Assembly (NCBI GenBank): GCA_945889195.1
Contig: CAMDBB010000003.1
Coordinates: 1-64,000 of the forward strand
Length of the DNA: 64,000 bases
Direction of reading: 5' to 3'
Source of the DNA: Bifidobacterium breve
GTDB lineage: Bacteria; Actinomycetota; Actinomycetes; Nanopelagicales; Nanopelagicaceae
Notes under the pieces: generated by a model
Told to the model about the DNA's origin: nothing
The model's input: the letters and a program-made list of their open reading frames with translations, nothing else
Database searches by the model: none
Part shown: positions 7,929 to 47,624 of the stretch, in pieces
How the letters are laid out: each line of letters starts with the position of its first letter
How positions within the stretch are numbered: position 1 is the first letter of the stretch
Position numbers and translations under genes: made by a program

Positions 7929-9767
7929 GTGTGCGGAATCGTGGGTTACACCGGACCACAATCTGCATTTACTCCTATCGTTGAAGGCCTTCGTCGCCTT
8001 GAATACCGTGGCTATGACTCAGCAGGTATCGCACTCGGTACCGGAAACTCTCTCTTCGTCGAAAAACGTGCCGGCAAACTTGCCAACTTAGAAGCAGCGC
8101 TTCCAGCCAATCTGCCAACTGTGCATTCAGGTATTGGCCATACTCGCTGGGCAACTCATGGCGGACCGACTGATCGCAACGCGCATCCTCATTTAGATAA
8201 TGAGGGAAAGCTGGCAGTTATCCATAATGGAATTATCGAAAATTACACCGAGCTCAAGGCGCTCTTGGAAAAGCGTGGCCACACCTTCTCATCAGAGACA
8301 GATACCGAATCAGTTGCACACCTGCTCTCTGATTTACGTAAAGAGCATGGTGGAGATCTTGCTGCTGCGATGCGCGCCGCCGTGGCTCAACTGCGAGGCT
8401 CATTCACACTGCTTGCAATTCACGCAGATAGTCCTCAAACAATTGTGGGAGTCCGCCGTAATTCACCGCTTGTTGCAGGTATTGGTAACGGCGAAAACTT
8501 CCTAGCCTCTGATGTGGCAGCCTTTATCGATTACACCAAGCGAGCTGTTGAACTGGGCCAGGATGAAGTCGTCACAATTACCCCTGAATCGATTGAGATT
8601 ACCGATTTATCTGGCAAGAAGCTGCCGCTGCGTGAATATGAAATTACCTGGGATAAAGAGGCTGCCCAAAAAGGTGGCTTTGCCCATTTCATGTTGAAAG
8701 AGATCTTCGATCAACCAAAAGCAATTGCAGATACTTTGATTGGTCGCCTGAGCGATAACAATCAGATTCAGCTAGATGAACTGCATATGAGCGATGATGA
8801 GATTAAGAAGATTCGCCGTATCTCAGTCATTGCATGTGGCACCGCTTATCACGCAGGCATGGTTGCCAAATATGCCATCGAAAAATGGGCAAAGATTCCT
8901 GTCGATGTAGAAATTGCATCTGAATACCGTTACCGCGATCCCATTGTTGATAAAGATTCTCTCGTTATCGCTATTTCACAATCAGGTGAAACCATGGATC
9001 TCTTGATGGCGGTACGTCACGCTAAAGCTGCTGGCGCACGCGTCCTTGCCGTATGTAATACCAACTCATCAACAATTCCCCGCGAATCAGATGCTGTTCT
9101 TTACACACATGCAGGCCCTGAAATTGCGGTTGCTTCCACTAAAGCATTCGTTACCCAGATTGTTGCCGTCTATCTCATCGGTTTAAAGCTAGCCCAGGTT
9201 CGTGGCGAACTCAGCGAGCAAGAAGTACGTGGCCTCTATCAAGAGATGCTTGAGCTTCCAGGTAAGGTCGAACAGATACTTGAAACCATTGAGCCGCTCC
9301 GTGAGCTAACGCGGAAATTCGCAACCAATAACACAGTGTTATTCCTCGGTCGCGGTATTGAATTCCCAATTGCGCTCGAAGGCGCCCTTAAGTTAAAGGA
9401 ACTTGCCTATATCCACGCTGAAGGATTTGCTGGCGGAGAACTCAAGCATGGACCTATCGCACTCATCGAAGAAGGCACAGCAGTGATCGCAATCTTGCCA
9501 ACTGCTGATGAGCACCAACTCGATGAGAAGATGTTGAGTAATATCCAGGAAGTCAAAGCCCGTGGAGCGCGCGTTATCGTGATCGCCGCAGAAGGCGCAG
9601 AAGTTGTGGGCGCAGAGCACATCATCCGTATTCCAGTGGCTTCTCCACTTTTCCAGCCGGTATTGGCAACTATTCCGCTACAAGTCTTCGCCTATGAAAT
9701 TGCAGTAGCCCGCGGAACTGATGTCGATCAACCACGCAATTTGGCGAAGTCAGTCACCGTCGAGTAA
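7929..9767 (+). CDS. glmS: Glutamine-fructose-6-phosphate aminotransferase (isomerizing)
   Basis: Makes glucosamine-6-phosphate from fructose-6-phosphate and glutamine. The 612-residue protein starts at GTG and places the catalytic cysteine at position 2 (MCGIVGYTG), which becomes Cys1 after Met removal. The N-terminal glutaminase domain (about 1-235, with RRLEYRGYDSAGIA) is followed by two SIS sugar-isomerase domains and the conserved end DQPRNLAKSVTVE. No glmS ribozyme is expected or seen in the 3 bp between glmM and glmS. Confidence 0.98.
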   Translation: MCGIVGYTGPQSAFTPIVEGLRRLEYRGYDSAGIALGTGNSLFVEKRAGKLANLEAALPANLPTVHSGIGHTRWATHGGPTDRNAHPHLDNEGKLAVIHNGIIENYTELKALLEKRGHTFSSETDTESVAHLLSDLRKEHGGDLAAAMRAAVAQLRGSFTLLAIHADSPQTIVGVRRNSPLVAGIGNGENFLASDVAAFIDYTKRAVELGQDEVVTITPESIEITDLSGKKLPLREYEITWDKEAAQKGGFAHFMLKEIFDQPKAIADTLIGRLSDNNQIQLDELHMSDDEIKKIRRISVIACGTAYHAGMVAKYAIEKWAKIPVDVEIASEYRYRDPIVDKDSLVIAISQSGETMDLLMAVRHAKAAGARVLAVCNTNSSTIPRESDAVLYTHAGPEIAVASTKAFVTQIVAVYLIGLKLAQVRGELSEQEVRGLYQEMLELPGKVEQILETIEPLRELTRKFATNNTVLFLGRGIEFPIALEGALKLKELAYIHAEGFAGGELKHGPIALIEEGTAVIAILPTADEHQLDEKMLSNIQEVKARGARVIVIAAEGAEVVGAEHIIRIPVASPLFQPVLATIPLQVFAYEIAVARGTDVDQPRNLAKSVTVE

Positions 9768-10807: not shown

Positions 10808-11913
10808 GAGCAGAAGCGATTGTTGATCTAAGCGCCATAAAATTTAACGTTGAGCTTTTGAAGAAGACTTCAGGCACCAAACTGCTCGCCGTGGTAAAGG
10901 CTGATGCTTATGGCCATGGACTTGTGCCGGTTGCACAAGCAGCCGTTTCAGCAGGCGCTGATTACCTAGGAGTCGCTCTTCTTGAAGAGGCAGTTGCGCT
11001 GCGAGAGGCAGGAATTACCGCTCCGATATTGGCATGGCTGGTGCAACCTGGCTCTGATTTTTCACAGGCGATATCACTCGATATCGATATCGCTGCCGCA
11101 TCCCTCAAGGCGCTCTCTGAGATTTCACTGGCTTCACGAAATCTTCAGAAGAAAGCTCGCGTTCATTTAGAAGTTGATACCGGAATGACCCGTGGTGGTT
11201 TCTTAGCTGAATGGGATCAACTTAATTCAGAGCATGTGAAAGATATAGAAATTGTTGGAATTTTCTCGCACTTTGCTCGCGCCGATGAACCAGGTGAAAA
11301 ACAGAATCAAGATCAGATGGCGCGTTTTGCCGAGATGGTTGCAAAGCTGGAAGCGCTCGGTTTCTCTCAGCTCATTAAACATCTCTCCAACTCAGCGGCA
11401 ACGTTGAAAAATAACGCCGCCGCTTTCGACATGGTGCGTACCGGAATTGCGATCTATGGACTCTCACCTGATGTGCAGACTCTTGGTAGCTCAAGTGCAC
11501 TTAAATTGCGACCTGCAATGCAGTTACGCGCTGCTTTGTACTTGGTTAAAGATGTTCCTTCTGGAACTCCAGTTGGTTACGGAGCTACCGAATCAACTAA
11601 GTCAGATACGCGCCTTGGAGTTGTCACAATGGGGTATGCCGATGGTATTCCGCGTATCGCACGTGGCGCAGGCGTTTGGCATAACGGAGCGCGCGCGCCA
11701 ATCATCGGACGCGTTTCTATGGATCAATTTGTCGTCGATCTCGGCCCAGATTCCAAGGCGCAATCAGGCGATTGGGTAACGATTTTTGGCAACGGTTCGC
11801 ATGGCGAATACACAGCCGATGATTGGGGAGCTGCTTCGCAATCAATTAATTATGAGATTGTCACACGAATTGGGCCGCGGGTGCCTAGAATCTACTCGCC
11901 TCATATCTACTGA
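10804..11913 (+). CDS. alr: Alanine racemase (PLP)
   Basis: Interconverts L- and D-alanine, supplying D-Ala for peptidoglycan. The PLP lysine K32 lies in [10 protein letters not shown] and the opposing catalytic tyrosine Y278 in MGYADGIPR. The C-terminal domain has [13 protein letters not shown]. The 369-residue length is typical. It overlaps acpS by four bases. In mycobacteria alr sits directly before tsaE; here a Liv transporter block of about 6.5 kb lies between them. Confidence 0.97.
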
Positions 11914-23135: not shown

Positions 23136-23438
23136 TTATGATGCGGTTGGAACGAGAGTGATTCCACGACGTGAAAGAATCGCAAGACGATCATCTTCTG
23201 AGAGACCGCCCCAGATTCCATAAGGTTCTTGAACGGCAAGTGCATGATCGCGGCACGCTTGGATAACAGGGCAGCTTGCGCAGACCGCCTTCGCAGCGTT
23301 CTCGCGATTGCGGCGACGTGGCCCACGCTCTCCATCTGGATGGAAGAACATCTCTGGCTCTTTATCGCGGCATGCGCCTTTGTACTGCCACTCCCATACC
23401 TCTTCGATAGGTTGCGGTAGACGTGATAGCTCAGCCAT
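23136..23438 (-). CDS. WhiB-family iron-sulfur transcriptional regulator (WhiB3/WhiD-like)
   Basis: Actinobacteria-specific 4Fe-4S regulator that usually works with the primary sigma factor. The four cluster cysteines are C23, C53, C56 and C62, followed by the GIWGG turn (74-78) and a basic C-terminus. The FFHPDGERG segment (31-39) and ALAVQEPYGIWGGLSE resemble WhiB3 of mycobacteria and WhiD of Streptomyces, and the position next to groEL1 matches mycobacterial whiB3. AAAGGAGAAGAG precedes the ATG. Sensing of redox or NO is known for relatives; it is inferred here. Confidence 0.92.
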   Translation of the reverse strand: MAELSRLPQPIEEVWEWQYKGACRDKEPEMFFHPDGERGPRRRNRENAAKAVCASCPVIQACRDHALAVQEPYGIWGGLSEDDRLAILSRRGITLVPTAS

Positions 23439-23467
23439 AGCTCTTCTCCTTTGTCGTTCTTACGCAT

Positions 23468-23523
23468 AAGGTACAACCGATTCATAGGTTGTTCAAGTAT
23501 CTAACGCGCCAAAAGTTGTTCAA
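23468..23523 (-). promoter_or_regulatory. whiB promoter with repeats shared with the MerR gene
   Basis: On the minus strand TTGAAC (23496-23491), a 17 bp spacer and TACCTT (23473-23468) give a good promoter for whiB. An inverted repeat ACAACC/GGTTGT (23473-23478, 23487-23492) lies in the spacer. GTTGTTCAA occurs twice on the plus strand (23488-23496 and 23515-23523), 27 bp apart. The second copy lies between the divergent genes. These could be operator sites for WhiB or the MerR protein. Confidence 0.6.
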
Positions 23524-23582
23524 AGAGCGAAATGTCCGTTTTTCAGGTGGTGAGTTCCCCCACTAGCGGGCACCATTGCGCC

Positions 23583-24482
23583 ATGCCTTCTACCCCTTCA
23601 GGAGAAGTTGAAGAGAAGCTGACGGTGGCCGCAGTAGCCCGCCGTATCGGTGTGGCTCCAGCGACCCTGCGAACATGGGATCGTCGATATGGGCTGGGGC
23701 CCTCGGATCACGTTGAAGGCGAACATCGCAGGTATTGCCCAAGTGATTTAGCAAAGTTAACGATGATGCGACGGTTGATTGTTGCAGGAGTTGCTCCATG
23801 TGAAGCAGCAGAGCAAGCTCGAGAATTTAAGGGCAAAGTAAAGTTGGCAAAGATTGTTAAAGAAATTGAAGTCCGCGAAGATGTTGTTGATGCGATATAT
23901 AAAGCTCTTCAAAGTTTTGATCGCCAATTTGTAGAAGAGACCCTCACTCACGAAATCGCTAATTACGGAGTTGAGGGGGCTTGGGCTGATGTCATTGTGC
24001 CAACGCTATTTTTGATCGGTCAGGACTGGGAGACAGAGAAGAAGGGGATTGAGGTAGAGCACCTCTTCTCTGAAATTCTCACCCGCACCATGAACAACCG
24101 TGTCGTCGAATTAAAGAAGCCAATCAATTCTCGCCCTGTTCTTCTAGCTGCTGTCGGTGAAGAGCTTCACTCACTTCCTATCTATGCGCTGGCTGCGGCG
24201 CTCTGTGAAAGAAATATCCAAACTTATGTGTTGGGTGCGCGCACTCCGATTACCGCGCTCTCGGCGATGGTCTCTCGCTGCGCACCCCCAGCAATTTTCT
24301 TATGGGCACAACTAGCCAAGAATGCAGAAGAGAAATACTGGCGTGAAATACCTGCAATCCGCCCAGCCCCACGAGTTGTTGTGGGCGGGCCAGGATGGGA
24401 TTCAATTGAATGCGATGATGTCATTAAGGCTGAGGGACTTGAGCATGCCTGCGAGGAAATTACGCAGGCTTTAGGCGCCTAA
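23583..24482 (+). CDS. MerR-family regulator with C-terminal cobalamin-binding-like domain
   Basis: About 299 residues. An N-terminal MerR winged helix (LTVAAVARRIGVAPATLRTW, about 13-32, with DRRYGLGPS and HRRY) precedes a helical cap. The C-terminal domain resembles the B12-binding fold of CarH/LitR photoreceptors: a degenerate E-L-H-S-L-P replaces D-x-H-x-x-G but keeps the histidine, an A-Q-L stands in place of S-x-L, and a GG occurs in VVVGGPGW. The frame is open from an ATG at 23532; the ATG at 23583 gives the usual N-terminus. It is divergent from whiB, with guaB 48 bp downstream. Targets are unknown. Confidence 0.8.
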   Translation: MPSTPSGEVEEKLTVAAVARRIGVAPATLRTWDRRYGLGPSDHVEGEHRRYCPSDLAKLTMMRRLIVAGVAPCEAAEQAREFKGKVKLAKIVKEIEVREDVVDAIYKALQSFDRQFVEETLTHEIANYGVEGAWADVIVPTLFLIGQDWETEKKGIEVEHLFSEILTRTMNNRVVELKKPINSRPVLLAAVGEELHSLPIYALAAALCERNIQTYVLGARTPITALSAMVSRCAPPAIFLWAQLAKNAEEKYWREIPAIRPAPRVVVGGPGWDSIECDDVIKAEGLEHACEEITQALGA

Positions 24483-24491
24483 TTGAGCAGG

Positions 24492-25643
<1,152 letters not shown>

Positions 25644-47491: not shown

Positions 47492-47624
47492 CTTTCTACT
47501 TCCTAATCCGGGCAGGTACGTGCCCGACGGTCCGAGGATGAGGTCGCTAGCCGGTTGGCTAGCGTGGGAAAGGTTATGTCAGGCGGGCCCCAATAGGAAG
47601 GGCCTTCGCTAGACTTCTCACATC
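47492..47624. promoter_or_regulatory. Divergent promoter region of the sugar ATPase and corC genes
   Basis: Two inverted repeats stand out. CGGGCA (47509-47514) with TGCCCG (47521-47526) lies close to the ATPase start. CGCTAGCC (47545-47552) with GGCTAGCG (47557-47564) forms a 20 bp palindrome with a GGTT centre. TAGACT at 47610-47615 is the probable -10 for the corC-like gene, nine bases before its ATG. The palindromes may be operators for a sugar-responsive regulator. Confidence 0.5.

Follow-up and report, generated by a model that had tools for sequence, protein, structure and literature searches.

A CarH/LitR-like MerR regulator recurrently paired with a WhiB3/WhiD-type gene in Actinomycetes, and its possible response to light and adenosylcobalamin

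What does a MerR protein with a cobalamin-type sensor domain do beside a whiB gene, and which signal could it bring to the promoter region that the two genes share? This question is raised by a locus in a 64,000-nucleotide stretch of DNA (the window) from a genome of 1.43 Mb in 19 contigs. The gene order is tsaD-groES-groEL, whiB (−), merR (+), guaB, guaB3, guaA, where all names but whiB and merR were read from translations. The merR and whiB reading frames are divergent, and 144 bp lie between them (shared region, 23439-23582), as the original prediction had described. The longest merR frame is 23532-24482 (+) from ATG 23532. The conserved start is ATG 23583, and it is taken as the merR start since it fits the conserved N-terminus. 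The features are as follows.

23136-23438, − strand: whiB, WhiB3/WhiD-type, 100 aa (open reading frame; PF02467 at 6.9e-26; nearest PDB chain WhiB3)
23468-23496, − strand: conserved element TTGAACAACCTATGAATCGGTTGTACCTT, containing -35-like TTGAAC (23491-23496), a 17-bp spacer and -10-like TACCTT (23468-23473) of whiB
23515-23523, + strand: second GTTGTTCAA copy, conserved at 7/9 or better in part of the window's own family (f1)
23571-23576, + strand: -10-like CACCAT at −12 to −7 relative to the merR ATG, a possible leaderless start
23583-24482, + strand: MerR/CarH-like regulator (open reading frame, Pfam, PDB sequence search, family alignment, model)
23622-23813, + strand: MerR winged-helix domain (Pfam) with recognition helix RTWDRRY
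23886-24095, + strand: four-helix bundle (B12-binding_2) with GxxW and Wx9EH, W166 at 24027-24029 and E176-H177 at 24057-24062
24138-24437, + strand: Rossmann module with E211-x-H213 (His codon 24168-24170), P216, W258 (24303-24305) and G285-G286

A -10-like hexamer is found 7-12 bases before the start codon in 109 of 113 family loci in a lenient search, where any in-frame start with NANNNT was accepted; because of this leniency we regard a leaderless merR message as likely at most. Elsewhere in the window there is an msiK RNA motif (RF01747, 56.1 bits) at 47494-47552 (−). The guaB gene (24531-25643, 370 aa) lacks about 130 residues between residues 91 and 94 as compared to its relatives in the class; we take the absent stretch to be probably the CBS pair.

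The presence of a MerR HTH and a CarH-type cobalamin domain is agreed by Pfam, the PDB sequence search and an AlphaFold model, which bears out the predicted CarH/LitR-like C-terminal domain. Specifically, Pfam finds MerR_1 (E 1.5e-12) and B12-binding_2 (2.1e-6, over its cut-off); the B12-binding model, with a cut-off of 32.1 bits, falls short at 23.9 bits (3.8e-5). Among solved structures Thermus thermophilus CarH is the closest in sequence (E 6.3e-17), and the recognition helix can be set beside the RxWERRY motif given for CarH (PMC9304148; this and the other papers are cited from excerpts). The model was built from 33 sequences and has a mean pLDDT of 83.2 and a pTM of 0.66. Full-length CarH chains fit it with large rmsd, 9 to 21, because their domains are arranged in another way. 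Taken by itself, the sensor domain matches CarH 5c8a with Z 19.7 and rmsd 2.5 over 189 aligned residues. A photocobilin (Z 20.6) and CarH are its best structural matches; photocobilins together reach Z 20.2-20.6, and CtMerR (19.3), the AppA SCHIC domain (18.4) and MetH (17.1) are matched as well, rows differing by Z of 1 or less being counted as tied. The two structural aligners make one test, since the candidates were common to both, and a common fold by itself is no proof of function. In NCBIfam the regulator scores 98.2 bits with TransRegCarH (NF052513), below the curated cut-off of 400 bits, a score reached in 0 of 197 class genomes and 0 of 14 control genomes.

The cobalamin pocket was mapped with the CarH motif (PMC8156234, PMC9304148) on three sets: f1 (115 rows, 95 unique), class rows linked to whiB (45) and class rows unlinked to it (27, with gaps at most sites of L052). 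The adenosyl-capping motif Wx9EH, overlooked in the original prediction, is intact (W166, E176, H177). The ligand histidine lies in E211-L-H213-S-L-P216, which fits D/ExHx2G/P, and a GG pair (G285-G286) stands x24 residues on, within the 22-27 of the motif; both had been correctly seen before. The spacings x41 and x24 are those of the CarH motif. Where Ser-x-Thr/Val is expected 41 residues on, the regulator has W258-A-Q260, and it departs from the stricter D/ExHx2G form with Gly only (PMC8156234, excerpt). The protein had been said to lack the canonical Asp, Gly and Ser. The loss of Ser stands, it being Trp here; the other two are no departure, since Asp and Glu both occur in CarH homologues and so do Gly and Pro (PMC9304148, excerpt). 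From the signature of light-responsive cobalamin domains (GxxW, EH, GxxxP, GxxH; PMC11796333, excerpt) the first three are present and GxxH is not, Glu210 standing in place of Gly.

These features are strongly conserved. Trp occupies the motif Ser position in 182 of 186 ungapped family rows and the ligand His is kept in 185 of 186. More specifically, the counts for f1, linked and unlinked rows are 115/115, 44/45 (one Tyr) and 26/27 for the ligand His; 115/115, 40/45 (five Phe) and 15/27 (nine Gln, three His) for the Trp of Wx9EH; 115/115, 44/45 and 26/27 for the Glu of EH; and 114/115, 45/45 and 26/27 for its His. At the Ser position Trp is found in 115, 41 (the rest three Tyr, one His) and 26 rows. 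The Gly position has Ala in 83 and Pro in 32 rows of f1, Pro 39, Ala 4 and Thr 2 in linked rows, and Pro 22 and Ala 4 in unlinked rows. In the 45 linked rows His177, the Pro of GxxxP and the second Gly of GG are invariant, and among 197 columns the ligand His ranks 12 and the Trp-for-Ser 23 in conservation. As judged from sequence, the adenosyl side of the pocket is intact and the other side is altered in one nearly fixed way; the real departure from CarH is Ser to Trp (plus V/T to Gln), with Gly to Pro tolerated. The Trp at the Ser position and the loss of GxxH could hinder cobalamin. Fifteen CarH-like rows of the same class keep the Trp of Wx9EH and the ligand His in 15/15 and the His of EH in 14/15; only two have Ser at the motif position, one is gapped and three have Ser one residue later, where the alignment may be off by one. 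Since these proteins also vary there, loss of Ser alone is compatible with cobalamin. The regulator would work in the manner of CarH, but we file it in a variant LitR/CarH branch, not as CarH proper, because of the Ser and GxxH departures.

Known systems help to place it. T. thermophilus CarH (5C8D/5C8E) has the MerR HTH, four-helix bundle, Rossmann module, Wx9EH, ExH, GG and spacings in common with the regulator; identity in the structural alignment is about 24%, and Ser, Val and Gly of CarH are Trp, Gln and Pro here. CtMerR (8JBS), a light-responsive cobalamin protein of Chloracidobacterium described as photoactive (PMC11796333, excerpt), has the same architecture and Ala where CarH has Gly, as do 83 of 115 f1 rows; unlike the regulator it keeps Ser and GxxH. 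CarA of Myxococcus is CarH-like in architecture, and the structure of its DNA-binding domain, 2jml (PMC8156234, excerpt), is matched by the regulator. CarA keeps the B12 motif and misses the Trp of Wx9EH (PMC9304148, excerpt), whereas the reverse is true of the regulator. Class II LitR proteins (PplR, PmlR), which bind promoters of light genes, are likewise a LitR/CarH branch with a changed sensor domain; they have the helix bundle only (PMC9758184, excerpt), whereas the regulator keeps both modules. The likeness to WhiB3/WhiD concerns the partner gene product, WhiB3 being the closest solved protein (1.8e-32 as against 7.2e-17 for WhiB1). WhiB3 is the orthologue of WhiD, and roles of both are described in PMC4255298 (excerpt).

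The original prediction placed merR where mycobacteria were said to carry sigD, between whiB3 and guaB2. The picture of a local oddity is not supported: the groEL-whiB/merR-guaB order recurs in many families of the class. merR is divergent from whiB in 45 of 72 class loci, a fraction biased by the drawing of loci mostly from better-scoring relatives, and these whiB products are 49-69% identical to that of the window. The whiB-linked regulators come from 20 families, the window's own included. In f1, 113 of 115 rows are linked; in L070 and L113 the match starts about 120 bases or less from a contig end. A maximum-likelihood tree of 99 rows (L051, as short, and L052 excluded) separates the family from the 15 CarH-like rows by a branch with 100/99 support. 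Linked rows stand on both sides of the deepest fork of the family, so the linkage to whiB looks old and the unlinked copies derived. Among the matches listed from the open-licence PMC literature, no title or abstract start described a MerR/B12-domain gene paired with whiB3 or whiD. Close relatives were also found in records titled Streptomycetaceae, Bifidobacterium breve and Streptomyces griseus (L054, L074, L088, L097, L103), and these names look wrong. Two genomes of one genus have a second divergent merR-whiB pair (G115 C1:3467490-3468837; G201 C1:326025-327308, L211), which may have been duplicated as a unit.

Co-occurrence of the two genes was counted by calling a gene WhiB3-type if the best match had an identity of 50% or more and started no later than residue five. 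In genomes picked by regulator status, and with relatedness ignored, a WhiB3-type gene was present in 26 of the 27 genomes that have the regulator and in 3 of the 27 that lack it (first set; G242, its copy cut by a contig end, was counted, and the one miss, G184, is 77% complete). In the second set it was present in 7 of 18 genomes without the regulator and 7 of 19 with an unlinked one. Tight coupling is thus restricted to the paired form. In seven genomes of family f9 (L169, L177, L179, L181, L182, L183, L186) the regulator is kept, with merR after groEL, and a WhiB3-type gene was not found; whiB is therefore not the only job of the regulator. A genus-level group of the same family (g51, three genomes) has neither the regulator nor the WhiB3-type gene nor a close guaB match.

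The shared region itself contains a candidate site. Two exact copies of GTTGTTCAA exist in the 64 kb, and both lie in the shared region, their starts 27 bp apart, which agrees with the repeats noticed originally. The first copy (23488-23496 on the + strand) is the end of the TTGAACAACCTATGAATCGGTTGTACCTT element. The long TTGAACAACCTATGAATCGGTTGTACCTT pattern, allowing up to three mismatches, is present once per genome, at the merR-whiB locus, in 12 of 12 genus genomes; its reversed control has 0 matches in them. The 14-bp core is matched at 12 or more positions in 112 of 113 f1 loci. With the core relaxed at one position (A to A/C/T), a change made after class sequences had been inspected, the 45 class pairs have a mean of 12.3/14 against 9.1 in shuffles, and 32 of them reach at least 12/14, as compared to 0.7% of dinucleotide shuffles. 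An element of at least 11/14 lies on the whiB strand in 35 of the 45; ten pairs have none on that strand, and two of these ten (L034, L159) match at 12 or more on the opposite strand. As the 35 elements were chosen by the core, this choice accounts for part of the conservation within it. Positions beyond the core are conserved too, with C and G at +17/+18 in 97% and 89% and T at +20 in 97%. The second GTTGTTCAA copy, at 7/9 or better, accompanies 53 of the 92 elements from f1, usually at a distance of 26-27 bp, and 4 of the 35 from the class, as compared to 2.8% of shuffles; it is an addition of the window's own family. One 11-mer in the region fits the CarH-type operator nAnnTnnACAn by eye, and, unlike in CarH, tandem 11-bp repeats were not seen there by eye and the partner gene is whiB.

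The element goes with the pair. Upstream of the 27 unlinked merR genes its score equals that of shuffles (8.85 vs 8.87), and the idea that it travels with merR everywhere was dropped. At whiB3 promoters it scores 8 or 9, which is background, in 10 of 10 genomes without the regulator, and 9 to 11 in 7 of 7 genomes with an unlinked one; in G327, where merR is 10 kb away, the whiB3 promoter scores 12/14 and the rest of the promoter is alike. Scores of 8 to 11 are seen at eleven other whiB loci, which hold second or more remote whiB genes. A regulon beyond whiB was also considered and rejected: the core with up to two mismatches occurs 405 times in eight genomes against 419 for the reversed control (31 vs 45 in the window's own genome, 66 vs 50 in G014). 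Half-sites of the GTGAACAAGTT type were seen upstream of other whiB genes in G115 and G336 (L213, L214), and these whiB genes are perhaps further targets in that genus.

Regarding the signal, six unlinked loci were scanned with Pfam on selected reading frames, and two of them have carotenoid genes near the regulator. In L046 the regulator immediately precedes polyprenyl synthase, desaturase-like and phytoene synthase genes, and in L053 desaturase-like and phytoene synthase genes are 2-8 kb away. LitR/CarH regulators classically act on carotenoid genes (PMC9758184, excerpt). A DUF1722/2-thiouracil desulfurase gene adjoins the regulator in L048 and L051, the latter having also TspO; no telling neighbours were found among the selected frames of L049 and L052. 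L046 contains two family members (8037-8903 and 10817-11854); the one that is not directly before the carotenoid genes adjoins a gene with epimerase and DUF1731 domains. A PduO-type adenosyltransferase was found in 12 of 12 genomes and NrdJ in 15 of 15, which makes it very likely that adenosylcobalamin is both produced and used. The window's own genome has both genes, and a frame of 1173 residues in it, which contains a B12-binding domain, probably encodes MetH. A CobA/BtuR-type adenosyltransferase was found in 0 of 12 genomes. An adenosyltransferase serving the regulator alone was also considered; this was dropped, as NrdJ is present in all 15 genomes, including three that have no regulator.

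Starting from the domain make-up, the CarH fold, the conserved pocket, the recurrent pair with its element and the adenosylcobalamin genes, we propose a variant CarH/LitR-type autoregulatory repressor of whiB and of itself that responds to adenosylcobalamin and light; taken as a whole, this reading stands at about an even chance. Its parts differ in strength. Binding of the regulator to the whiB-merR region is highly probable, cobalamin is somewhat favoured as the ligand, and a light response through cobalamin could equally well prove right or wrong. Adenosylcobalamin would be held from below by His213 and capped from above by Trp166, Glu176 and His177. In the dark the loaded regulator would sit on the element over the -35, spacer and -10 of whiB and keep RNA polymerase off it, and merR itself would be controlled by the same region. 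Light or loss of adenosylcobalamin would break the oligomer and free whiB, whose WhiB3/WhiD-type Fe-S product may then redirect sigma-A transcription. We infer repression rather than activation, since a spacer of 17-18 bp needs no MerR-type untwisting. The original suggestion, a sensor of light, B12 or a changed ligand with its site between the two genes, agrees with the fold, Wx9EH, the ligand His, the element that goes with the pairing and the adenosylcobalamin genes, and it is supported in part.

The same fold and the same whiB target could also belong to a cobalamin-independent protein like CarA or the class II LitRs, answering to another signal or to a partner protein. Ser to Trp is nearly fixed in the family and GxxH is lost; 12 of 27 unlinked members have lost the Trp of Wx9EH, as CarA has (PMC9304148, excerpt), and B12 binding is believed to be absent from class II LitRs (PMC9758184, excerpt). 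Yet His213 and Glu176 are each kept in 70 of 71 class rows and His177 in 71 of 71, which is hard to explain without a ligand, and CarA, which drops the Trp and keeps the B12 motif, is the reverse of the present case (PMC9304148, excerpt). We consider cobalamin independence unlikely. Alternatively, the ligand could be another tetrapyrrole or a changed corrinoid (heme, cobinamide or another lower base), with Trp taking up the nucleotide-tail pocket. The Trp at the Ser position with the ligand His kept would agree with this, that position presumably lying by the tail, as would the structural closeness of the AppA SCHIC domain, which we take to be a heme and not a cobalamin domain. However, GxxW, EH and GxxxP on the adenosyl side are intact, these genomes very likely make adenosylcobalamin, and the residue at the Ser position is weak evidence on the ligand because CarH-like proteins of the same class vary there; a different ligand seems quite unlikely.

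The remaining alternative concerns the DNA: the element might be only the whiB promoter or a site of WhiB autoregulation, with merR acting elsewhere. It does coincide with the -35 and -10 hexamers, unlinked merR genes are without it, and seven genomes keep merR in the absence of whiB. Since the element doubles as the whiB promoter, some of its conservation can be explained with no regulator involved. Against this, the spacer positions outside the search core (C/G at +17/+18) are conserved too, and the element is missing from 10 of 10 whiB3 promoters without merR, a comparison confounded by lineage because most merR-less genomes are from other families. We hold a promoter without the regulator to be distinctly improbable and prefer the CarH/LitR-type repressor of whiB and merR.

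Based on the sequence comparisons, the merR-whiB pairing appears to be an old arrangement, common to many actinobacterial families. It is possible, and we suggest it tentatively, that a class-wide Trp-for-Ser branch has controlled the WhiB3/WhiD gene since the early Actinomycetes, feeding light or adenosylcobalamin status to an Fe-S regulator, and that some later copies came to act on carotenoid genes. Planktophila is abundant in fresh water (PMC7527133, excerpt). The pocket of the regulator provides a naturally occurring variation on that of CarH. Research on WhiB3/WhiD proteins concerns redox, development and virulence; if the proposed repressor is real, a conserved CarH-type partner with a defined promoter site would allow a direct test of light or B12 as an input to whiB3/whiD. 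It would also give Planktophila a light-sensing transcription switch besides its rhodopsins, and light or B12 status may be tied to the Fe-S regulator WhiB in a freshwater actinobacterium.
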